The notes under the pieces were generated by a model that worked only from the letters and a program-made list of their open reading frames with translations, made no database searches and had not been told where the DNA came from. A DNA stretch of 56,317 bases from Candidatus Kuenenia stuttgartensis. Lineage in GTDB: Bacteria; Planctomycetota; Planctomycetia; Pirellulales; UBA1268. The position numbers and the translations under genes were made by a program. The DNA is taken from positions 1 to 56,317 of the forward strand of contig CAMBSN010000008.1 in the NCBI GenBank assembly GCA_945870505.1, read 5' to 3'. Positions 42,653-54,159 of this stretch are shown in pieces. Position 1 is the stretch's first letter, and the number at the start of each line of letters is the position of its first letter.

Positions 42653-43960
42653 TTAGCGGCGGATCGTGTCTGAGACCATGTGGCCGAAAAGCGTTTCCCG
42701 GCCCCGCAGCACATAGAACTTGATCGGGTTGAGATGCTCCTCGATCGCCTTGTCGAGGATGTATGACACGTTGTCCGGGGCAATCGTCTCCCAGACATGA
42801 AGCCCCACAAGGATGTCGCCCTCCTGAATCCCCTGTTCGGCCGCCGGCCCGCCCTCGCGAACTGACGTCACGACCAGGCCGCCGCGATAGCGTGCCTGGA
42901 GCTTCTGCACCTTGGCGGCCGGGGCAGGCTGAAACCGCAACCCGATCTCGGCCCAGCAGCGGTCATCGAGCGACTCCGAGTCGCGGGAGATCTCGGCGAG
43001 AGATAGCTCGATCTGCTCCTCACCGCCTGAGCGGACCATGGTCACCGGGATACTCTCACCCGCCTTGTGGCCGATGAGGGCGCGCTCCACGTCGAGTTGG
43101 CGGGCTACGGCCAGCTCGCCGATCCGCGTGATCCGATCGCCCGCCTTCACACCCATGCTCTCAGCCGGACTCCGTCGGTGAACCGCCTCCACCACCGCGC
43201 CCTCGCGGCCATCGCACCGCACCACGAGTCCGTGCCACGTCTGGTCGATCCGCTCGACCGACATCAGTCGCGACACGATGTCGAGCACGCGGTCGATCGG
43301 GATCGCGAAGCCGATCCCCTGGGCACCCGCCCGAACCGCAACGTTGATCCCAATCACCTCGCCGTTGATGTTGAGGAGCGGTCCACCGGAGTTGCCCGGA
43401 TTGATGCTCGCGTCGGTCTGGATGAGATCTTCGTATCGCTGGGTGCGGCTGACCTCGACGTTGCGATGCAGGGCCGAGACGATCCCGCGGGTGACGGTGT
43501 GCTCATACCCGTAAGCATTTCCGAGTGCAAGGACCGTCTCCCCGATCATCAAGTCGCTCGACGTTCCGATCGTCGCCACCGGGAGGCGGACGTCGCTGGC
43601 GATCTTGATGACTGCCAGGTCGGTGCGCGGGTCGTGAGACACAAGCGTGGCTGCGGTGGTCTTGCCTGAGGCGAGCGTCACTTCGATCCGCCGCACCCCC
43701 TCCACAACGTGATAGTTGGTGACCGCGTAGCCGCGAGGGTCGATCACCACGCCGGTGCCCATCCCGTTGACGCGGCGAACCTCAGCTTCCGTGCCGTCGT
43801 CTCCCCCAATGACCTTCTGGCCGTGAATGTTGACCACTGAGTCGCGCTGCGACTCAATCGCCATCACGATGGCGGTGCGCCGCGACTCCGCGACCGTATC
43901 ATGAGCCAGGCCAGCGGCAATGAGAGCCAGAAGCGGAAACCATGCTGACGATCTCTGCAT
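42653..43960 (-). CDS. Secreted HtrA/DegP-type serine protease with two PDZ domains
   Basis: 435 residues from ATG 43960; the N-terminus MQRSSAWFPLLALIAAGLAHD is a signal peptide. The catalytic triad is H84 (TNYHVVEG), D114 (DPRTDLAVIKI) and S191 (INPGNSGGPL). Two PDZ-like domains follow (about 235-320, VKAGDRITRIGELAVAR, and about 345-430, IQEGDILVGLHVWET). DegP-like enzymes degrade or refold envelope proteins. It is located 72 bp upstream of thiL. A second protease of this family lies at 46708. Confidence 0.93.
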   Translation of the reverse strand: MQRSSAWFPLLALIAAGLAHDTVAESRRTAIVMAIESQRDSVVNIHGQKVIGGDDGTEAEVRRVNGMGTGVVIDPRGYAVTNYHVVEGVRRIEVTLASGKTTAATLVSHDPRTDLAVIKIASDVRLPVATIGTSSDLMIGETVLALGNAYGYEHTVTRGIVSALHRNVEVSRTQRYEDLIQTDASINPGNSGGPLLNINGEVIGINVAVRAGAQGIGFAIPIDRVLDIVSRLMSVERIDQTWHGLVVRCDGREGAVVEAVHRRSPAESMGVKAGDRITRIGELAVARQLDVERALIGHKAGESIPVTMVRSGGEEQIELSLAEISRDSESLDDRCWAEIGLRFQPAPAAKVQKLQARYRGGLVVTSVREGGPAAEQGIQEGDILVGLHVWETIAPDNVSYILDKAIEEHLNPIKFYVLRGRETLFGHMVSDTIRR

Positions 43961-44152
43961 GCCGAATCGCTCCCGACCCCCGTGACGGTGGACACCGGCC
44001 ACCCGGCGACAACCACACCTTGCGGGAAAATCGGCCGCTTGGCGATGGCCGTCCACCGGCAGTGCTCCAGCCCGTACACCTTTCCAGCGGAGACGTCCCG
44101 GGCCGTCATGCGGGGGCGGGGCGGAAAAACCTGCCGACCCGGGGAAACAGGT

Positions 44153-45508: not shown

Positions 45509-46708
45509 ATGCACGCCGAAGTGATTGCGATTGGTGATGAACTGACGTCGGGGCAGCGACTCGACACCAACAGCCGGTGGATGGCCACCGAACTGGGGGT
45601 CTTGGGTGTTCCGGTGACGTTCCACACGACGGTCCCTGACACACTGGAGGCGGGCATCGAGGCGTTTCGCCTTGCGGCAGACCGGACGCCGCTGGTCGTC
45701 GTCACTGGCGGCCTGGGGCCGACCGCCGACGACCTCACCCGCGACGTGCTCGCCGCGGTGGCCGGGGTTCCGCTCGAGCTGTCGCCCGAGGCCCTCGCCG
45801 ACGTCGAGGCCCGGTTTTCGAAGCGCGGCATGCCGATGCCTGAGTCGAACCGTCACCAGGCGATGTTTCCGCGGGGCAGCCGCATCATCCCCAATCCCGA
45901 AGGCACGGCACCGGGCATCGACATTGATCTTCCTGGCGTTGCTGGGCGAGCGTGCCGCGTGTTCGCCCTGCCGGGTGTGCCGGCAGAAATGAAGGTGATG
46001 TGGAAGGCAACCGTTGAGCCTGCCGTGCTGGCGATGCTGCCCGACCGGGCCACGATCGTGCAGCGGCGGATCAAGTGTTTTGGTGCGGGTGAGAGCGCGG
46101 TGGAGGCGATGCTGCCCGACCTCGTCCGTCGCGGCCGTGATCCGCTCGTGGGGATCACCGCACACGAGGCGACGATCACGCTACGGATCGCGGCGCGGGG
46201 CCGGCATGAGGCGGAGTGCCTGGCGAAGATGGCTCCAACGGAGGCGACGATCCGCGAGTGCCTTGGCACGATCGCCTACGGCGTCGAAGACGACGAGATC
46301 GAGGACGCCGTCCTGACGGCGGTGGCGGCAAGCGGCAAGTCGCTTGCGTCGGTGGAGTCGGGCACCGCAGGACGGGTGGCGACGCTGCTCGCACAGGCTG
46401 AGGCCCGTCGGAAAGCGGCCGCCAGCGTGTTTCGGGGCAGCTGCGTGATGCCGGCGGGAATCGCCGACGTCAGGGCGGCCGCCGAGGAGGCTCGCCGCCA
46501 GTGGGCCGCAGCGGTCGGCCTCGCCGTCGGCGACGTGCGGCCGACGGCCGAGGGGCGTCGGGCGGTGGATGTCGCCATTGCTGACGACGCGGGCGTGAAG
46601 GTGACGGAGCACGTGTTCGGTGGTGGAGCCGATCTCGCCCCCACCCGGGCCGCCAAGTGGGCGATCAACCTCGTGCGGCTGCGCATGCTGGAAGGAGGCA
46701 GCCTGTGA
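45509..46708 (+). CDS. cinA: CinA-like competence/damage-inducible protein
   Basis: 399 residues. The N-terminal MoCF-biosynthesis (COG1058) domain is clear: AEVIAIGDELTSGQRLDTNS, VVVTGGLGPTADDLTRDVLA (about 55-74), RVFALPGVPAEMKVMW. The C-terminal half (about 255-399) is the nicotinamide-nucleotide amidase-like domain, but it is diverged around SVESGTAGRVATLLAQAE. The family includes pyridine-nucleotide repair enzymes. AGGAGG precedes the ATG, and its stop overlaps the next gene start (TGATG). Confidence 0.93.
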   Translation: MHAEVIAIGDELTSGQRLDTNSRWMATELGVLGVPVTFHTTVPDTLEAGIEAFRLAADRTPLVVVTGGLGPTADDLTRDVLAAVAGVPLELSPEALADVEARFSKRGMPMPESNRHQAMFPRGSRIIPNPEGTAPGIDIDLPGVAGRACRVFALPGVPAEMKVMWKATVEPAVLAMLPDRATIVQRRIKCFGAGESAVEAMLPDLVRRGRDPLVGITAHEATITLRIAARGRHEAECLAKMAPTEATIRECLGTIAYGVEDDEIEDAVLTAVAASGKSLASVESGTAGRVATLLAQAEARRKAAASVFRGSCVMPAGIADVRAAAEEARRQWAAAVGLAVGDVRPTAEGRRAVDVAIADDAGVKVTEHVFGGGADLAPTRAAKWAINLVRLRMLEGGSL

Positions 46709-47802
46709 TGTCTCCTGCCACCCAGGCGAATCGGCGGACGCTGCTGCTTTTGGCGGGGCTCGTCGTCTTGGTTGGATTGATCGCGTGGCCTTCGTTCGTG
46801 GGGCGGATGCAGTATGCCCGCACCCGGGCCGAGTTGGCGGCCATCCGCGACGCTGCAACGCAGGCGGAACTGACGTCGGTCGGAAAGATGTTCACGACTC
46901 TGGCGAGGATCATCGGCCCGACGGTCGTCAACGTGACGTCGAAGAAGCGACTCACCTCGGTGGCGGACGAAATCGCAGCGCTCCGTGGGATCCGACCGAT
47001 CGGCAAGACGGCCGAGGAGGTGGGGTCGGGGGTCATCGTCGAACGTGACGGGGTGATCGTGACGAACTATCACGTGGTCGCCAACAGTAGCGAGGTTGAC
47101 GTCGCACTTGCCGACGGTCGCCGATTTGCCGCCACACTGATCGGCGCTGACGCAGGCACCGACCTGGCAGTGCTGAGGATTGACGCTCAGGACCTGCCCG
47201 TCGCCACGTGGGGCGACAGCGACACGGTCGAGACGGGGGAAATGGTCTGGGCGATCGGCAACCCGTTTGGTCTCGACCGCACGATCACGTATGGAATCGT
47301 CAGCGCCGTGGGGCGAAAGGGCGTGCTGGAAAGTCCGTACCAGGAGTTCCTCCAAACCGACGCCGCGATCAACCCGGGCAACTCCGGTGGCCCGCTCGTC
47401 GACGTCCACGGCCGCGTGATGGGGATCACGACGGCGATCGTCGGCAAGGACTACTCGGGCATCGGCTTCGCCATCCCCAGCAACACGGCCCGGAAGGTCT
47501 GCCGCGAGATTCTTGAAGACGGGTATGTCGAGCGCGGCCACCTGGGCATGCTGCTGGCGTCGTCTCCGCCCGACGTGTTTGGTGCGCTGGTGGTCGCCGT
47601 CGAGCCAAAATCGCCGGCAGCACTCGCGGGCATCCGGCCCGGAGACCTCGTGGTGTCGTTTGACGGGGTACCGGTGGCCGAGCCTGCCGGCCTCGTGCTA
47701 CAGGTGACCCGCACGCCGATCGGGGAGAAGGTGCCACTCGGCGTGGTCCGCAGCGGCACGGAGGACACGGTCATCGTCCAGGTCGGCCGACGGCCGCAGT
47801 GA
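46708..47802 (+). CDS. Membrane-anchored HtrA-type serine protease with one PDZ domain
   Basis: 364 residues from ATG 46708, overlapping the cinA stop; GGAAGGAGG lies about 11 nt upstream inside cinA. One N-terminal membrane segment (about 11-27, LLLLAGLVVLVGLIAW). The triad is H122 (TNYHVVANS), D152 (TDLAVLRI) and S226 (INPGNSGGPL). One PDZ domain follows at about 270-360 (IRPGDLVVSFDGVPVAE). This is a DegS-like layout, typical of envelope stress proteases. The pairing with cinA by overlap is unusual and may be chance. Confidence 0.93.
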   Translation: MSPATQANRRTLLLLAGLVVLVGLIAWPSFVGRMQYARTRAELAAIRDAATQAELTSVGKMFTTLARIIGPTVVNVTSKKRLTSVADEIAALRGIRPIGKTAEEVGSGVIVERDGVIVTNYHVVANSSEVDVALADGRRFAATLIGADAGTDLAVLRIDAQDLPVATWGDSDTVETGEMVWAIGNPFGLDRTITYGIVSAVGRKGVLESPYQEFLQTDAAINPGNSGGPLVDVHGRVMGITTAIVGKDYSGIGFAIPSNTARKVCREILEDGYVERGHLGMLLASSPPDVFGALVVAVEPKSPAALAGIRPGDLVVSFDGVPVAEPAGLVLQVTRTPIGEKVPLGVVRSGTEDTVIVQVGRRPQ

Positions 47803-47862: not shown

Positions 47863-50800
47863 TCAACCCGTGGCCGCGTCGCCTTCGGCAGGCTTGTCAT
47901 CGCCGCCGCCCGGCAGGTCGTCGAGCATGCTCGAGAAGTTGAAATCGCCGCCACCAAAAGCCGAGAAACCGCCGAGGCCGCCACCCGCGTCGTCGGCAGG
48001 GGCAGTTTTGGGTGACGCGGCGGCCGGCTTCGCGACCGGCCGATCAACAGGTGTGCCCTGCGGACGGGCCCGCATCTGACCGGTCACCGTCTCCAGCCAT
48101 TCGGCTGAGGGGAAGGCGTAGGGCCGGAACTTCTCGAGCGTACCTGTCTCCTCATGAATGAAGAGCGCCCGCTGCGGACCAAGCTTTGCCGCGACCGGGG
48201 TGTCCACGAGCTGACTCGAGTCGTTGCCGCTCATCTGGAAGAGCACCCGGAGCTCGAACTCCTTGATGGCGTTGCGATCGAACGTGCGCTGCAGATTGGT
48301 GAGCGAGTCGCACCAGATGATCATATGGACGCCCACCGCCGGGCCATCCTTCAAGACCGTGAGAAAGTTATCGGCCGGCGATGCCTTTTTGTCGCCACCC
48401 AACGAGAAGCCGAAGTCGCTCTCGTTCTTACGAAGCTCACGGAAGCGGCCGAGATCGCGAACGATCACAAACACCGCCTCACCGTCGACAACCTGCTCGT
48501 CGAGTCGCCGCTTCACCTCGGCTGCCAGCTGCTCCACGGCGTCGCCGACACCGAACCGGCCGACCACCTCGACCTCATGTGGCAGGTGGGCCGCGGCCCG
48601 TGAGATCAGGATCTCCGGCTTCTCCTCGGCAATGGCCGGTTCGAGGAGGACGAACCGCCCCGGCTTGCCCAGGGCGCCGCCCGGGTGCGGATCGAATCCG
48701 GCAGCGAGGCTGACCATCGACATGGCGAGGATCGCCGCCCCGAGATCGTCCCGCTGTCCGACGATCAACATGTTCGCGCCCCCTTGGCGTCGGAAGATCG
48801 CCGCGGTGGGATCCTTGATGGCGATGGCATCGCCCATCCAGGCAAGCGGCGCCACAAGATCCGCGCCGTGGACGGAACCAGACGCGAGGAGTTCGGTGAG
48901 CAGCGGGTTGAGGGCTGGATCGGCCGCCTGATTGCCGTCGAAGACGATCCGCTCGAGATGCGGAATGTCCGTTCGCCGGTCGGCGAGCTTGCGGAGCGCG
49001 CCGAGAAACTGCTCCCGCTGTTCGTCGGTGAGGAACACGACCTGGAAGGGATTGTTGCCCTCGACCATGCCGTTGGCGTCGTTGTAAATCGCTTCGCCGG
49101 GGCGGGTGAGCAACCGCGCCGCCGTGTTGTCCTCGGAGAGGATCAGGCTCGAGTCGGCCTCGTTGCACTGCAGCGCGATGCGGATCGCCATCTGGCCCAT
49201 CGTGGCCCGAGGGAGGCTGTAGGAACCACCGAGCGTCTGCGAGCCGAGCAGCACGTGGATGCCGAAGGCACGGCCCTGACGCACGAGACGGTCGAGGATC
49301 AACGAAGCATCCTGGGCGATTTTGTCGTCTTCGACGAAGATTTCCTGAAACTCGTCGATGATCAGCAGGATCCGCGGCATCGGGTCGGGATGGCCGGTCT
49401 GGCGAAATCCGCCGACGTTCTGCACCGAGAGTTCACGAAACAGGTCACCGCGCCGCTTGAGCTCGCGATCGAGCTGCTCCATCACGGAGAGACCGAACTC
49501 GCGCTCGCTCTCGATGGCGATCACGCGGGCATGCGGTAGGGCGTAGTGGTCGTAGAGTTTGAACTCCACGCCCTTCTTGAAGTCGATGAGGTAAAACTGG
49601 ATCTCGTTGGGGCTGTATTGCAGGGCGAGGCTCGTGATCATCGCGTGCATGAGCGTGGATTTGCCGGAGCCCGTCTTTCCCGCGATCAGGCAGTGCTGGC
49701 TCGTGCCCTTGCCCAGTTTCAGAAACTGCAGTTTCTTGGCTCCGGCAGGGCCGAGCGGGGCCAGAACCTCCTCGGCGGTGCTGCCCTTCCACCACTGGTC
49801 TTCCGCCGGAGCAACGCGATCGAACGGCACGATCACCCGCTTGGCCGACTTGGCGGCTTTACCGACCCGCTGGATGATCCGCGTGAACACCTCGTCCGAC
49901 GGCGCCTGCTCCACCGTGAGCGGCCATTTGGACCACTCGGGATCCTTCCAGGTGTAGGTGCCGTCTTTGAGGGTCAGCACAGTGCAGTGCTGCTCGACGT
50001 CCGCCAGCGAGAAGCCCGACGGCATCTGCTGCGAGGGATCGATGGAGAGAATCACGTAGACGCCGCACCGCGCCCCCGAAGACGCGATGCTCGCCAGCCG
50101 ACGCGCGCTCGTCTCGTTGAAGTTGGCCGGGAAGTTGGCGACGGCGACGAAGCGATACGGTTCGGGAACCTCCGCGTCAGCGTTGTACGCACCGATCGAC
50201 TCGTATTCGTTGCGGAGGTACTTCTGGATCACCACTTCCATCTGCTCGGTGATGTCGGCCAGCTTTTGCTCGATCAGCTGCGGCTCCGTCCAGATGCGGC
50301 TGGTGACGAGGAGCTCGTCGTAGTCGGCGAGATGCATGAAACCGGCAAACTGTTTGCCGAGGCCGAGCGGATCGACGATGGTGAATCTGGTCTGACCGGC
50401 TGGGAGACCCGTGGCGATGCGCAGCATCATCGCCTGCATCATCGCCGATGCCGTCTCCTTCTCCTCGGCCGACGTTTTGATCAGGAGGGATGAGGCGACC
50501 GGCCACGCGACGGTGGCGGGCTGTTTCCACGAAATCGGCCCGAAGCTGTTGAGCGCATCGACGGCGGACACGCCCCCCGGCACCCGCTCCAGGGAGAGCG
50601 ACAGGTGGCCGAACCGGATGCCGGGCGGCGGATCGACCGGAAGCGCCACCCCATCGTCGGCCAGGTCGTTCCAGTCGCGAAACGCCGCCGCGTCGATCCT
50701 TGCGGCCTCGTTGCACACCGCTGCGGCCGACTCTCGGGCTCCGCGCCAGGCCTCCGTCATCGCCTGCCAGTCGGTGTCGCGCTGCCGGGTGGCGGCTGCG

Positions 50801-51903
50801 AGCTGCTCATCGCGCGTCCGCTCGAGGCGTTGGATGTGGCTTTCGAGCGACTGCTGGAGCGCCTTCACCTGCGGTGGATACTTCTGCTCTGCATCGGCGA
50901 GTTCGCTGGCCACCTTGGCCGCGACCTTCACGGCGACGTCGTCGCACTTCTTCGCCAGATCCCGCAGGGAGGCGTCCCGCTGGGCGGTTGCCTCCTCGAG
51001 TTTTCGGGCGAGCTGAGCCTTGCGCGCGGTGTCTTCCTCGCGAAGCTTCGCCTCCAGACGGGTCTTGAGTTCCGCGCATTTCGTGGTGATCCACGTTCGC
51101 GCCTCCTGCTCCAGCGACTTGGCCTGGCTCACCGCGTTGAGCAACTCCTGCTGTCGCGTTGCGAGGCTGGTGCGGATGGCAGCCTTGTTACCGCTGAACA
51201 GGCCGCCAAGGCCGCCGGCGAGCGCCTGCTTGGCGGCGGGATCGTTGAGGATCTCCCCGGCGAACGTCGCCACGGCGGTGGCGGCCCCGGTGATGCGTTC
51301 AACCGGTGATCCCCGTGCCGCGCTGGCCGGCGATGCCGGCTCAGCGGGCGTTCTCACCCCCCAGGCGGCGAGCTGCTTCGCGACCGCGGCTGCGTCCTTG
51401 TCGAGCTGGGCCAAGGCCGCCGAGACCTTCTGATCGTACGCCTTGGCAGCCTGCTGCGGCTCCAAGGACTTGGACTTGCTGACCTCCTTGAAGCGAACCT
51501 GCTCGAAGAGCTCCTCTTCCTTGAGTTCCGCGACCGTCTCCTCGTACTTCCTCGTCAGTTCCCGACTCTTCGCCTTGCGATGCTCGTCGATCTTCGCCTG
51601 CTCGCCGGCCCGCCACTGCTCGACCTTCCGCTTGTGCTCCTCGTGCTTCTGGCGGGCAGCCGCGATCTCGGTGGCGTGCTTCTGCTGGGTGTCGGCCAGT
51701 TCGCGCTCGGCAGTCTGTCGGGTGGCACTCGTTGCCGAGTCGTAGGCGTCGGTGATCGCCGCCTCCAACTTGGAGCGGCTGCCGGCCTCCCGGCGCAGGA
51801 TCAGCATCTGCTCCCGGAGCACGTCGGGATGGTATGCCGAGCGGTCGCGCTCGGTCGCTGGACTTGTGTCGGCAGACGGCGATTCGGCTTCGTTCATGCT
51901 CAC
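47863..51903 (-). CDS. FtsK/SpoIIIE-type ATPase of a type VII secretion-like locus
   Basis: 1346 residues. Residues about 30-420 are mostly charged coiled coil with a short Gly-rich break (200-240) and no membrane segment. A first FtsK-like module spans about 425-690 without a Walker A. The central module (about 725-960) is intact: Walker A GKTGSGKS at 742-749, Walker B LLIIDEFQE at 846-854. A third module (about 1010-1280) has a degenerate loop (VGQRDDLG, 1048-1055). The tail from 1285 is Pro/Ala/Gly-rich. The three-module layout resembles EssC/EccC motors of type VII secretion. Two small W-containing helical proteins and a helical 204-residue protein are encoded just upstream on the same strand, which supports that role. 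The lack of a membrane anchor is unusual. Confidence 0.85.
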   Translation of the reverse strand: MSMNEAESPSADTSPATERDRSAYHPDVLREQMLILRREAGSRSKLEAAITDAYDSATSATRQTAERELADTQQKHATEIAAARQKHEEHKRKVEQWRAGEQAKIDEHRKAKSRELTRKYEETVAELKEEELFEQVRFKEVSKSKSLEPQQAAKAYDQKVSAALAQLDKDAAAVAKQLAAWGVRTPAEPASPASAARGSPVERITGAATAVATFAGEILNDPAAKQALAGGLGGLFSGNKAAIRTSLATRQQELLNAVSQAKSLEQEARTWITTKCAELKTRLEAKLREEDTARKAQLARKLEEATAQRDASLRDLAKKCDDVAVKVAAKVASELADAEQKYPPQVKALQQSLESHIQRLERTRDEQLAAATRQRDTDWQAMTEAWRGARESAAAVCNEAARIDAAAFRDWNDLADDGVALPVDPPPGIRFGHLSLSLERVPGGVSAVDALNSFGPISWKQPATVAWPVASSLLIKTSAEEKETASAMMQAMMLRIATGLPAGQTRFTIVDPLGLGKQFAGFMHLADYDELLVTSRIWTEPQLIEQKLADITEQMEVVIQKYLRNEYESIGAYNADAEVPEPYRFVAVANFPANFNETSARRLASIASSGARCGVYVILSIDPSQQMPSGFSLADVEQHCTVLTLKDGTYTWKDPEWSKWPLTVEQAPSDEVFTRIIQRVGKAAKSAKRVIVPFDRVAPAEDQWWKGSTAEEVLAPLGPAGAKKLQFLKLGKGTSQHCLIAGKTGSGKSTLMHAMITSLALQYSPNEIQFYLIDFKKGVEFKLYDHYALPHARVIAIESEREFGLSVMEQLDRELKRRGDLFRELSVQNVGGFRQTGHPDPMPRILLIIDEFQEIFVEDDKIAQDASLILDRLVRQGRAFGIHVLLGSQTLGGSYSLPRATMGQMAIRIALQCNEADSSLILSEDNTAARLLTRPGEAIYNDANGMVEGNNPFQVVFLTDEQREQFLGALRKLADRRTDIPHLERIVFDGNQAADPALNPLLTELLASGSVHGADLVAPLAWMGDAIAIKDPTAAIFRRQGGANMLIVGQRDDLGAAILAMSMVSLAAGFDPHPGGALGKPGRFVLLEPAIAEEKPEILISRAAAHLPHEVEVVGRFGVGDAVEQLAAEVKRRLDEQVVDGEAVFVIVRDLGRFRELRKNESDFGFSLGGDKKASPADNFLTVLKDGPAVGVHMIIWCDSLTNLQRTFDRNAIKEFELRVLFQMSGNDSSQLVDTPVAAKLGPQRALFIHEETGTLEKFRPYAFPSAEWLETVTGQMRARPQGTPVDRPVAKPAAASPKTAPADDAGGGLGGFSAFGGGDFNFSSMLDDLPGGGDDKPAEGDAATG

Positions 51904-51954
51904 CCGGGAGCCTCGTGGTTGCGGAAGGATGGGGGGTGGGACGCTGGACGGCGG

Positions 51955-52191
51955 CTACATGCCGTCGGTGTCGCTCACGTCGCGGATCGCGCGGTCAAGA
52001 ACCTCCGCGAGCCGGCCGAGGGCATCGAGCGTTTCTTTGACGCTCGGCGTGAGCGGGTCGATGTGGTCCTTGTGGAAGGCCTTGGCCCGGACGTCGTGCC
52101 AACCCTCGGTGGCAATGTCCCACTTGATATTCAACTGCTTGAGCGCGTTGGCGAGTTTCGATGCGCCGCTGGACAGGTCGCCGACTCTCAT
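51955..52191 (-). CDS. Small WXG100-like helical protein
   Basis: 78 residues from ATG 52191, overlapping the stop of the 204-residue gene by 4 bp (ATGA). Two predicted helices around a turn with W31 (EGWHDVRAKAFHKDHIDPL); the W-x-D-x5-F spacing resembles the W-x-G/D turn of WXG100 proteins that are exported by type VII systems. It lacks the canonical Gly, and is shorter than 100 residues. It lies between the 204-residue protein and the FtsK-like motor, 51 bp upstream of the latter. Confidence 0.65.
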   Translation of the reverse strand: MRVGDLSSGASKLANALKQLNIKWDIATEGWHDVRAKAFHKDHIDPLTPSVKETLDALGRLAEVLDRAIRDVSDTDGM

Positions 52192-52802
52192 GACGGCTGT
52201 CCTCCAGCGGCTGGTGGCTGCGGCACGATCGCCGGCTTCGCCGCCTGTGCCTCGTCGATCTGGCGGGTCACGCTCTGGCCGCCTGAGCCAGCCGCGGCGC
52301 CGGCGTCGCCAGCGGGCGAAGCGACCTGGCGGTACGCGTCGAGCGCCTTGAGCATCTTCTCCAGTTGCGCCATCGCCCGCGGACAGTCGACGTCCACCAC
52401 CTCGCGGAAGCGGACCAGCCGCACGCACGTCTCGCGGAACTGCTGCTGGACCAGGGGCGTCCAGCGGCGGACTGCCTCGGCCTTCTGCTCGGCCCGCGCT
52501 AGCCGCTGCTTCGCCTTCTCGAGCGCCTTCTTCTCCTCGATGCACGAGGGCTGGTTATTGCCGACCTTTTTGAATGCCTTGCAGTACTCCAGGTCTTTGA
52601 CCGCCTTGTTGACCAGTTCGGTCATCCTGCGGACCTCGGCTTTCCAGTAGGCCGCCTGATCGACACAGATCCAGTCGACGGCCCGTTGCCCCTGCATCTC
52701 GCACTCCGAGATGGCCTGACCAGACTCATGGGCGAACGAGGCGAACGCGGCCTTCACGAAGGCGAGCGTGTCGATCGATTTGACGTCTGCCTGGGTCGAC
52801 AT
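52188..52802 (-). CDS. Helical cysteine-containing protein of the type VII-like locus
   Basis: 204 residues. Residues 8-160 are predicted helical with long coiled segments (KKALEKAKQRLARAEQKAEA) and conserved-looking aromatic points (W44, YW52-53, W114). Six cysteines (34, 46, 74, 87, 126, 140) are unusual for a cytoplasmic protein. The tail (161-204) is Ala/Gly/Pro-rich and disordered. I believe proteins of this outline recur in planctomycetes but can assign no function. Position between the two WXG-like genes suggests an export substrate, adaptor or chaperone. It begins 42 bp after the first WXG-like gene. Confidence 0.75.
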   Translation of the reverse strand: MSTQADVKSIDTLAFVKAAFASFAHESGQAISECEMQGQRAVDWICVDQAAYWKAEVRRMTELVNKAVKDLEYCKAFKKVGNNQPSCIEEKKALEKAKQRLARAEQKAEAVRRWTPLVQQQFRETCVRLVRFREVVDVDCPRAMAQLEKMLKALDAYRQVASPAGDAGAAAGSGGQSVTRQIDEAQAAKPAIVPQPPAAGGQPS

Positions 52803-52843
52803 GCGGGTGCTCGTGCGGAAGCCGGGGAAGTGAGAACGATCCG

Positions 52844-53116
52844 TCAGCGCTGCTGCAGGTATTCCTCGACCCGCTCGGCCTTGCGGATCAGGTAGGGAAC
52901 GTATTCGCTCGTCGACTCTGCAAACCGCTTGAAGGTGCCCAACTGGGCCTCGAACTCCTCCGCAAATTTCTGCTGCTCTTGGTCGCGCCAGGTGGAACTG
53001 AGGCCGGCGAGCTGCCGCTGCACCATCTGCATCTGGGCGACGACTTCGTCGCTGAACTTCCGAAGGGCGCCGGCGAACCTACGAAGTTCCGCCGGATCGA
53101 CGACTGCCTGTCCCAT
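52844..53116 (-). CDS. WXG100-family protein
   Basis: 90 residues from ATG 53116. Two amphipathic helices (about 8-40 and 46-88) flank a turn STWRDQEQQKFAEEF with W43, the WXG100 hairpin with D in place of G. Family members are ESAT-6-like substrates or structural partners of type VII secretion motors, secreted as dimers. First gene of the minus-strand operon that ends with the FtsK/SpoIIIE-type ATPase. It is divergent from hemQ with 173 bp between the starts. Confidence 0.82.
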   Translation of the reverse strand: MGQAVVDPAELRRFAGALRKFSDEVVAQMQMVQRQLAGLSSTWRDQEQQKFAEEFEAQLGTFKRFAESTSEYVPYLIRKAERVEEYLQQR

Positions 53117-53289
53117 GGTTGGATTCCCCTGAGGAACGCGGAGTCGGATCAGACTCCGGAGATGCCGTATCGTACCGCGAAACGGCTGCCTGTGGACACT
53201 CTCCCGCCAGCCGGCGGTCGGCTGGGAATCCGGGCACGTGGAACGTAGACTCCGCCCCGTCGTTTCTCGCACATGCCCGGAGGTCCGTC

Positions 53290-54159
53290 GTGACGCAGCC
53301 CACCCGCCCCGGTCCTTCCCCGCACGCCGCCGCCCACGCGGCGGTGGAAACCGCCATCACACCGTGCACCGGCTGGCACTGCAGCCATCTTTTTTATGCC
53401 TTCGACCGCGGCCGGCTGGCGGCGCTCCCGGCCGCGAGCCGAGCGGAGGGGGCAAGCCGATTTACCGCAGCCCTCGACCCCGCCGGCCCGGAGGCGGCCA
53501 CACGACTCCAGACGTGGATCGTGCCAGGCCACAAGGCCGACTTCGGCGTGATGGTGCTCGACCCTGATCCGCTCAAGGTGGATGCTGTCCATCAACGACT
53601 GCTCGCCGGCCCGCTCGGGGAGGCGATCGTGCCGACCTACTCGTTCGTGAGCCTCACCGAGGTGAGCGAGTATGTGCCCACTCTCGAGCAGTACGCCCAG
53701 CGGCTCGTGGCGGAGGGGGAAATCGTGGACAGCCCGTCGTACAAGGCGAAGGTGCAGGGCTACGCCGCTCGCGAGCCAGCGATGCGGCAGGCACGTCTCG
53801 AGCCCGAGCTTCCACCGTGGCCCAATGCCTGCTTCTACCCGATGAACAAGAAGCGGAAGGTTGGGGAGAACTGGTTCACGCTGCCCTCCGCCGAGCGGAG
53901 CCGGTTGATGGCCGAGCACGGTGCGTCGGGAATGAAGTTCGGAGGTCGTGTGACCCAGCTGATCACGGTGTCGGTCGGCCTCGACGACTGGGAGTGGGGA
54001 GTCACGCTCTGGGCCCGCCGGCCGGACTGGCTCAAGGAGATCGTGTACACCATGCGGTTTGACGAGGCGAGCGCGCGATACGCCGAGTTCGGTCCGTTCT
54101 ACACCGGCTATGTCGCCACACCGGCGGAGATCCTCACCCACTGTCGCGTGACGACCTGA
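53290..54159 (+). CDS. hemQ: Coproheme decarboxylase HemQ (chlorite dismutase family)
   Basis: 289 residues from GTG 53290, preceded by GGAGG 6-10 nt upstream; the frame extends into the promoter region. Family motifs include WHCSHLFYAFDR near the start, SFVSLTEVSEYVP (about 118-130), FYPMNKKRKVGENWFTLP (catalytic Tyr and Lys, about 180-197) and LMAEHGASGMKF (heme-ligand His, about 207). The WGVTLWARRPDWLKEIVY stretch follows. HemQ makes heme b from coproheme in the coproporphyrin-dependent pathway. Intact and apparently monocistronic. Confidence 0.92.
   Translation: MTQPTRPGPSPHAAAHAAVETAITPCTGWHCSHLFYAFDRGRLAALPAASRAEGASRFTAALDPAGPEAATRLQTWIVPGHKADFGVMVLDPDPLKVDAVHQRLLAGPLGEAIVPTYSFVSLTEVSEYVPTLEQYAQRLVAEGEIVDSPSYKAKVQGYAAREPAMRQARLEPELPPWPNACFYPMNKKRKVGENWFTLPSAERSRLMAEHGASGMKFGGRVTQLITVSVGLDDWEWGVTLWARRPDWLKEIVYTMRFDEASARYAEFGPFYTGYVATPAEILTHCRVTT

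Follow-up and report, generated by a model that had tools for sequence, protein, structure and literature searches.

In a 56,317-nucleotide stretch of DNA from the planctomycete Candidatus Kuenenia stuttgartensis (GenBank assembly GCA_945870505.1, contig CAMBSN010000008.1, positions 1 to 56,317 of the forward strand; hereafter the window), we analysed a set of four genes, G1 to G4, encoding three small helical proteins and an FtsK/EssC-type motor ATPase. The set is not a standard type VII secretion system; it is a nuclease-free relative of minimal modules, resembling type VII secretion, that have been reported from other diderms. An earlier note, made from the sequence alone, had placed four closely spaced or overlapping genes on one strand here, and all four open reading frames (ORFs) were recovered at those positions: G1 and G2 are separated by 41 bp, the G3 ATG overlaps the G2 stop codon by four bases, and 51 bp lie between G3 and G4. 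The features are:

52844-53116, minus strand: G1, a WXG100-like hairpin protein of 90 amino acids (aa), ATG start at 53116, with W-R-D replacing W-x-G
52188-52802, minus strand: G2, a helical protein of 204 aa, modelled by AlphaFold2 as a long two-helix hairpin with a low-confidence tail
51955-52191, minus strand: G3, a second small WXG-like protein of 78 aa, with a W-x-D motif and a sub-threshold WXG100 match
47863-51903, minus strand: G4, an FtsK/EssC-type motor of 1346 aa, GTG start, with an FtsK_SpoIIIE match
51199-51204, minus strand: hairpin junction within G4, at about codons 234-235 (alignment-dependent), placed by hydropathy scan and alignment block; the hydrophobic hairpin carried by 51 of 68 family members is absent here

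The motor G4 passes the Pfam cut-off for FtsK_SpoIIIE (107 bits) and consists of a charged N-terminal region of about 420 aa followed by three ATPase-fold modules. The three-module EssC/EccC-type ATPase of the earlier note thus held, with the refinement that Walker A (742-749) and Walker B (DE, 850-851) are confined to the middle module. K748, S749, D850 and E851 are present in all 68 full-length motors, the corresponding candidate stretches in the two outer modules have none of them, and the same middle-only pattern was seen by eye in five plasmid relatives. A model of the core (predicted local distance difference test, pLDDT, 82.8) aligns with EccC of T. curvata (4nh0) over 705 residues with a root-mean-square deviation of 14. 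G4 lies far under the NCBIfam cut-offs for EccCa, EccCb and EssC, which marks it as a divergent relative of the EssC/EccC-type ATPases. No FHA domain was matched in G4 in the Pfam scan, and its N-terminal region, charged and rich in alanine, probably forms a coiled coil. We rejected an identity of G4 with the FtsK DNA translocase (26 bits for NCBIfam FtsK, whose cut-off is 1566) and with the chromosomal FtsK, for which a separate 902-aa FtsK-like frame exists on another contig of the same genome.

Among the small proteins, G1 passes the Pfam WXG100 cut-off (31.5 against 27.3 bits) and stays below that of NCBIfam (32 against 44.85 bits), and G3, with 18.3 bits, falls below the Pfam cut-off. A profile of 51 relatives found, for G1, HP0062 of H. 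pylori (3fx7, E 2.4e-10) as its best solved structure, followed by the WXG100 hairpins EsxB (E 2.9e-7) and EsxA (E 1.2e-4); the G2 and G3 profiles gave no convincing match to solved structures. With the G1 match, the earlier note's first refuting condition, small proteins that do not resemble the WXG100 hairpin, did not refute it. W-x-D instead of W-x-G occurs in 61 of 61 members of the G1 family and 68 of 68 of the G3 family, and W31 and D33 are the only invariant columns of G3 among 42 aligned family members. G2 had no Pfam match below E 0.1 and no NCBIfam match, and no recognised nuclease was found in it, either by family searches or in the AlphaFold2 model, which folds helices 3-77 and 88-161 into the hairpin (mean pLDDT 80.6). 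The 63 members of its family range from 85 to 246 aa, the shortest being incomplete. The C-terminal YxxxD/E signal of type VII secretion is absent from the last 30 residues of all 61 G1, 68 G3 and 63 G2 proteins; outside that region it was found in one of the 68 G3 proteins.

For the conservation of the set, the best 80 of 137 motor relatives were reduced to 78 distinct loci, on which the locus counts are based; they come from planctomycete or unclassified genomes, mostly metagenome-assembled, and speak for these genomes rather than for other phyla. The earlier note's second refuting condition, that the four genes do not co-occur in other genomes, did not refute it either, for they do: the set is complete in 60 of the 78 loci, and Singulisphaera acidiphila (L058) and Paludisphaera soli (L069) are among its carriers; 17 others have less than 1500 bases upstream and could not be judged, and the gene order is thus kept in 60 of the 61 loci with enough upstream sequence. 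A strict order test was passed by 56 of the 60, and in the other four the stop positions show the same order (three have long upstream ORF extensions, and L006 has G2 and G3 in one ORF). The exception, L075, shows 7 kb of upstream sequence without G1 to G3, and its genome carries G2 and G3 elsewhere, as does the genome of L067, one of the 17, in which the available 1.1 kb upstream contains no G3 although there is room for one. By tblastn, with position unchecked, the chlorite dismutase gene that neighbours the set was found in 41 and an HtrA-type neighbour in 31 of the 78 loci, all of them closer loci; the distant loci lack these neighbours and still have the four genes side by side. Some motor match exists in 58 of 60 genomes (the window's own, 21 of the same genus, 15 of the same family and 23 of the same order), many of these matches being only the ATPase stretch of an ordinary FtsK; at E below 1e-200 the motor is present in the own genome and in 19/21, 14/15 and 14/23 of the same-genus, same-family and same-order genomes, respectively. 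On these grounds, and without a gene-against-species tree, the set does not appear to be a mobile module, the flanks being common to the closer loci, the motor nearly constant within genus and family, and the plasmid relatives only distant (22-27% identity).

In a draw of 294 genomes across the phylum, 40 carry G1 (E up to 1e-3) and 39 the motor (E up to 1e-60), 38 of them both; the three discordant genomes are 72-87% complete, and among the 154 high-quality genomes (at least 90% complete, at most 5% contaminated) an identical 21 carry both. The set thus has a patchy distribution within the phylum and is either present or missing as a whole. One family of the same class (f21) includes seven checked genomes in which the genes are scattered and each part is kept. 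On the single contig of G083 (f21), G1 is found at 2.50 Mb, the pair of G2 and G3 at 4.30 Mb, and G4 at 5.92 Mb, and on that of G164 (f21) G1, G2, G3 and G4 lie at 0.71, 2.66, 1.94 and 0.24 Mb. The single contig of G210 has G1 to G3 together and G4 0.7 Mb off; G195 has G2 and G3 on one contig with G4 0.45 Mb away, and the drafts G146, G251 and G273 have the parts on separate contigs. G308, of another family, holds G1 to G3 together with G4 0.18 Mb off, and three further f21 genomes (G314, G323 and G348) have the compact operon. A single G2 match was obtained in 13 of 14 genomes checked and a single G3 match in 10 of 11, the exception being G166 both times. The retention of every part after the operon broke up points strongly to a single shared function and speaks against a mobile cassette.

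A feature that varies among the motors is a hydrophobic hairpin in the N-terminal region, which we called by a hydropathy scan. At least two strong hydrophobic segments are present in 47 of the 68 motors, one in 4 and none in 17, the last including the motor of the window (highest 19-residue value 1.48); the segments begin at about residues 205-295, except in one N-terminally truncated copy. One segment or more is present in 13 of 14 additional motors that the phylum draw supplied. The one without is the motor of G166 (L132, 2325-5628), just upstream of which a separate hydrophobic protein of 124 residues with two segments is encoded. An alignment of 24 rows, including 12 of the 17 hairpin-less motors, showed by eye three different junctions, shared by the window's clade and L005, by the clade of L019, L023, L030 and L049, and by L027 and L044. 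A tree of the core, obtained by a quick method and with long branches and a weak midpoint root, requires four changes of hairpin state, and all 20 rows beyond the midpoint root, plus L068, carry the hairpin; this distribution, together with the flanking residues that are still present, suggests loss rather than gain. Since L005 (motor codons about 190-260) has the junction of the window's clade and yet groups by its core with the hairpin-bearing L066, a mismatch that reflects either recombination or tree error, three independent losses are the safer count; the hairpin was apparently deleted three times or more, the clade of the window being one of the cases. The core of the hairpin-less motor stayed under purifying selection: when the window is compared with four relatives that also lack the hairpin, the rate of nonsynonymous substitution (dN) is 0.04-0.05 and that of synonymous substitution (dS) 0.70-0.73, a ratio of about 0.05-0.07. 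Constraint that persists without the anchor suggests that the motor either does not span the membrane or is anchored by something else, and the repeated loss of the anchor speaks against a membrane channel that is built in and obligatory.

With T7SSa/b the set has in common a WXG100 hairpin protein (G1) encoded with the motor and a multi-module ATPase of the EssC/EccC type (G4), whereas the motor of the window is not anchored by transmembrane helices of its own. The absence of EssB, reported earlier for the surroundings of the operon, extends to whole genomes: neither YukC/EssB nor the ubiquitin-like YukD/EsaB was found in 11 genomes (that of the window, 87% complete, and 10 relatives), both controls being found in B. 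subtilis, and a search for EccB gave no match in the 11, nor in any control. Each of the 11 genomes has exactly one WXG100 match, which leaves no substrate repertoire of the WXG100 family.

Modules of this general kind have been described before, and the set is accordingly less novel than the earlier note assumed. Zhang et al. (2012; PMC3482391), in Table 1, footnote 6, name planctomycetes among the lineages with solo WXG domains, which have a YueA-like ATPase of three HerA/FtsK domains with only the middle one active, and call these systems 'mobile versions of T7SS'; they share the middle-active ATPase and the WXG protein with our set, which is inherited in place and kept though scattered. 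The CoCoNuT paper (2024; PMC11090510) reports an EssC-like ATPase that lacks membrane domains and is accompanied by a nuclease and two WXG100 proteins. Like ours, the Type III-A CoCoNuT/TerY-P module contains three ATPase modules, of which the central one alone is active, has a long N-terminal region in place of FHA domains, and comes with two small WXG-type proteins (here G1 and G3, the latter below the Pfam cut-off) and a third helical protein. In contrast to it, 51 of the 68 planctomycete motors have the hydrophobic hairpin, G2 shows no nuclease of the kind carried by the third protein there, and the planctomycete set is stand-alone and inherited in place. HP0062, the best solved match to G1, has W-R-D at its bend and is clustered with a gene for an FtsK-domain protein (PMC3397514), and the HP0062 and HP0066 clusters are core clusters in a pan-genome paper (PMC4978471); according to these papers, the neighbouring Helicobacter clusters include an HNH/EndoVII nuclease and a DnaK homologue, whereas the planctomycete set has neither. 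T7SSa/b and T7SSc-j, as outlined in PMC11217815, share the WXG100 protein and the EssC/EccC-type motor, but their motors are membrane-bound with further conserved parts, and the new types except T7SSd have a ubiquitin-like protein, in contrast to the 11 genomes above. Hairpin losses, scattered co-retained genes and a nuclease-free third protein are not mentioned in the excerpts of these papers that treat related systems, and may be published elsewhere; a literature search on WXG100, planctomycetes and type VII secretion returned one paper, the excerpt of which held nothing on such a module, and PMC7159879 and PMC3935865, as far as consulted, do not mention WXG systems of diderms.

Thirty plasmid records match the motor. 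In five of them the relative spans 37-59% of the query, amounting to a large part or most of the core; the other 25 reach 20% at most. The five come from Rhodococcus (two), Caballeronia, Deinococcus and Helicobacter, and four of them have a G1-type partner, with W-x-D in those of Caballeronia, Helicobacter, Rhodococcus (L114) and Deinococcus. The plasmid of Helicobacter sp. NHP19-012 (L118, 6761-11163) encodes a WXG protein, a 340-aa protein ending in a WHH nuclease, a SUKH immunity protein, a 77-aa protein and the motor in one run, so that a toxin cassette sits within the module. In Caballeronia the order is vWA, WXG100, a 436-aa protein, a 113-aa protein, a 76-aa protein, motor, CARF, vWA, phosphatase (PP2C) and kinase, with AAA genes also among the neighbours; the kinase, vWA and phosphatase parts recall those described for T7SSc in PMC11217815. 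The Rhodococcus and Deinococcus plasmids carry rearranged versions, one Rhodococcus copy being without a clear G1 relative; TerD genes adjoin one Rhodococcus relative, and one-segment membrane-type proteins adjoin the Deinococcus motor and one Rhodococcus motor. A scan of viral contigs gave no full-core motor relative among the matches listed. In an unverified phage record (MT836827.1; L143, 2034-7368), a faecal contig labelled phage that looks bacterial or integrative by eye, a motor relative precedes a 351-codon ORF whose start resembles G3.

The divergent neighbour of G1 is a chlorite dismutase/HemQ-type gene (53119-54159, plus strand; Pfam E 5.5e-51), whose true start is probably further in, since the listed TTG start is only 3 bp from the start of G1. 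Beyond G4 lies an HtrA-type ORF with trypsin-like and PDZ domains by Pfam (46657-47802, plus strand). It and a second ORF that resembles it by eye (42653-44056, minus strand) flank a CinA-type gene, and tblastn matches to these two ORFs occur in 28-31 of the 78 loci. The CinA-like protein (45509-46708, plus strand) has good MoCF and KH domains and a CinA C-terminal domain below the cut-off (E 0.013); its C-terminal half is possibly degenerate.

On balance we consider it somewhat more probable than not that the set comprises a motor dedicated to three helical client proteins. It would work like the motor and substrate portion of a type VII system, lacking an obligatory anchor and the other parts that were searched for. 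The operon would be the planctomycete branch of a family marked by W-x-D and an EssC-like ATPase active in its middle module. G4 would probably form a ring of the FtsK/HerA type in which the central module drives and the two inactive modules flank it, and in most lineages its long N-terminal region would tether the motor to the inner membrane by the two-helix hairpin. G1, G2 and G3 may serve as clients or adaptors of the helical-hairpin type, which would associate among themselves and deliver G2, in the position of a relative's nuclease, to the motor. The planctomycete set would have turned into a fixed, nuclease-free, vertically inherited machine, acting at the cytoplasmic face or via a recruiting partner; a membrane crossing of its client would be possible but not obligatory. 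The repeated deletion of the hairpin without relaxed selection on the core implies that the motor itself need not span the membrane. A more novel reading, conceivable but less probable than not, is a WXG/EssC machine domesticated as a non-secretory, cytoplasmic protein-remodelling motor, with all four parts kept, no toxin domain and the hairpin cut several times independently.

Several observations weigh against the interpretation as a motor with three clients that need not span the membrane. The membrane calls come solely from hydropathy, and in 12 of the 68 motors the same scan picks out, presumably falsely, a core window of 1.6 or more; the midpoint root itself cannot separate loss of the hairpin from gain, and an unlinked membrane protein could supply the missing hairpin in trans. 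Y-x-x-x-D/E does occur outside the last 30 residues in 40 of the 63 G2 proteins. The G2 profile does not align to the proteins in the G2 slot of Helicobacter and Caballeronia and aligns weakly to that of Rhodococcus L114 (E 4e-5), so that the equivalence of the cargo slot is mainly positional, and the toxin-immunity pair in the Helicobacter slot is most simply read as toxin export. Finally, G166 has G1 and the motor and no detectable G2 or G3, which suggests that not all four parts may always be needed.

The main rival of the favoured client-motor reading is export, which we regard as conceivable but less probable: a minimal type VII-like exporter whose motor would drive complexes of G1, G2 and G3 over the inner membrane, with unlinked proteins providing the channel and, where the motor lost it, the anchor. 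The WXG100-type partners, the EssC-type core, the wide occurrence of the hairpin in the phylum, the separate hydrophobic proteins beside the G166, Deinococcus and Rhodococcus motors and the Helicobacter cassette would all agree with it, whereas the missing YukC/EssB and YukD, the single WXG100 protein per genome, the lack of a C-terminal YxxxD/E in all three families and the hairpin missing at three different junctions speak against it. The earlier note had left the choice between a minimal export system with parts elsewhere and a different use of the WXG/FtsK pair in a diderm cell, and this interpretation is partly supported, with both alternatives still candidates: the former is weakened by the absence of YukC/EssB and YukD, by the one WXG100 protein per genome and by a hairpin that is dispensable, and the latter would fit somewhat better. 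An intracellular defence or stress module, in which the motor together with the WXG proteins would control an effector within the cytoplasm, appears improbable. Relatives adjoin restriction, TerY-P, CARF and TerD genes, the Caballeronia copy sits amid vWA, CARF, PP2C, kinase and AAA genes, and the CoCoNuT paper pairs the EssC homologue and two WXG100 proteins with a nuclease; however, the planctomycete G2 has no recognised nuclease and none of its 63 members exceeds 246 aa, the flanks of the window are chlorite dismutase, HtrA and CinA-type genes common to close relatives, the set outlasts the break-up of its operon, no full-core relative was among the viral-contig matches listed, and PADLOC matched no more of the motor than its ATPase region.

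WXG100 proteins and EssC-type motors are usually taken as markers of secretion, and their use in diderms is a side remark in the parts of the related literature that we drew on. The W-x-D signature and the scattered, co-retained genes offer a means of recognising further members, and the natural variants of this chromosomally fixed set with and without the hairpin would permit a clean test of whether the motor must span the membrane. If the non-secretory reading is true, WXG-guided motors would not be synonymous with secretion.

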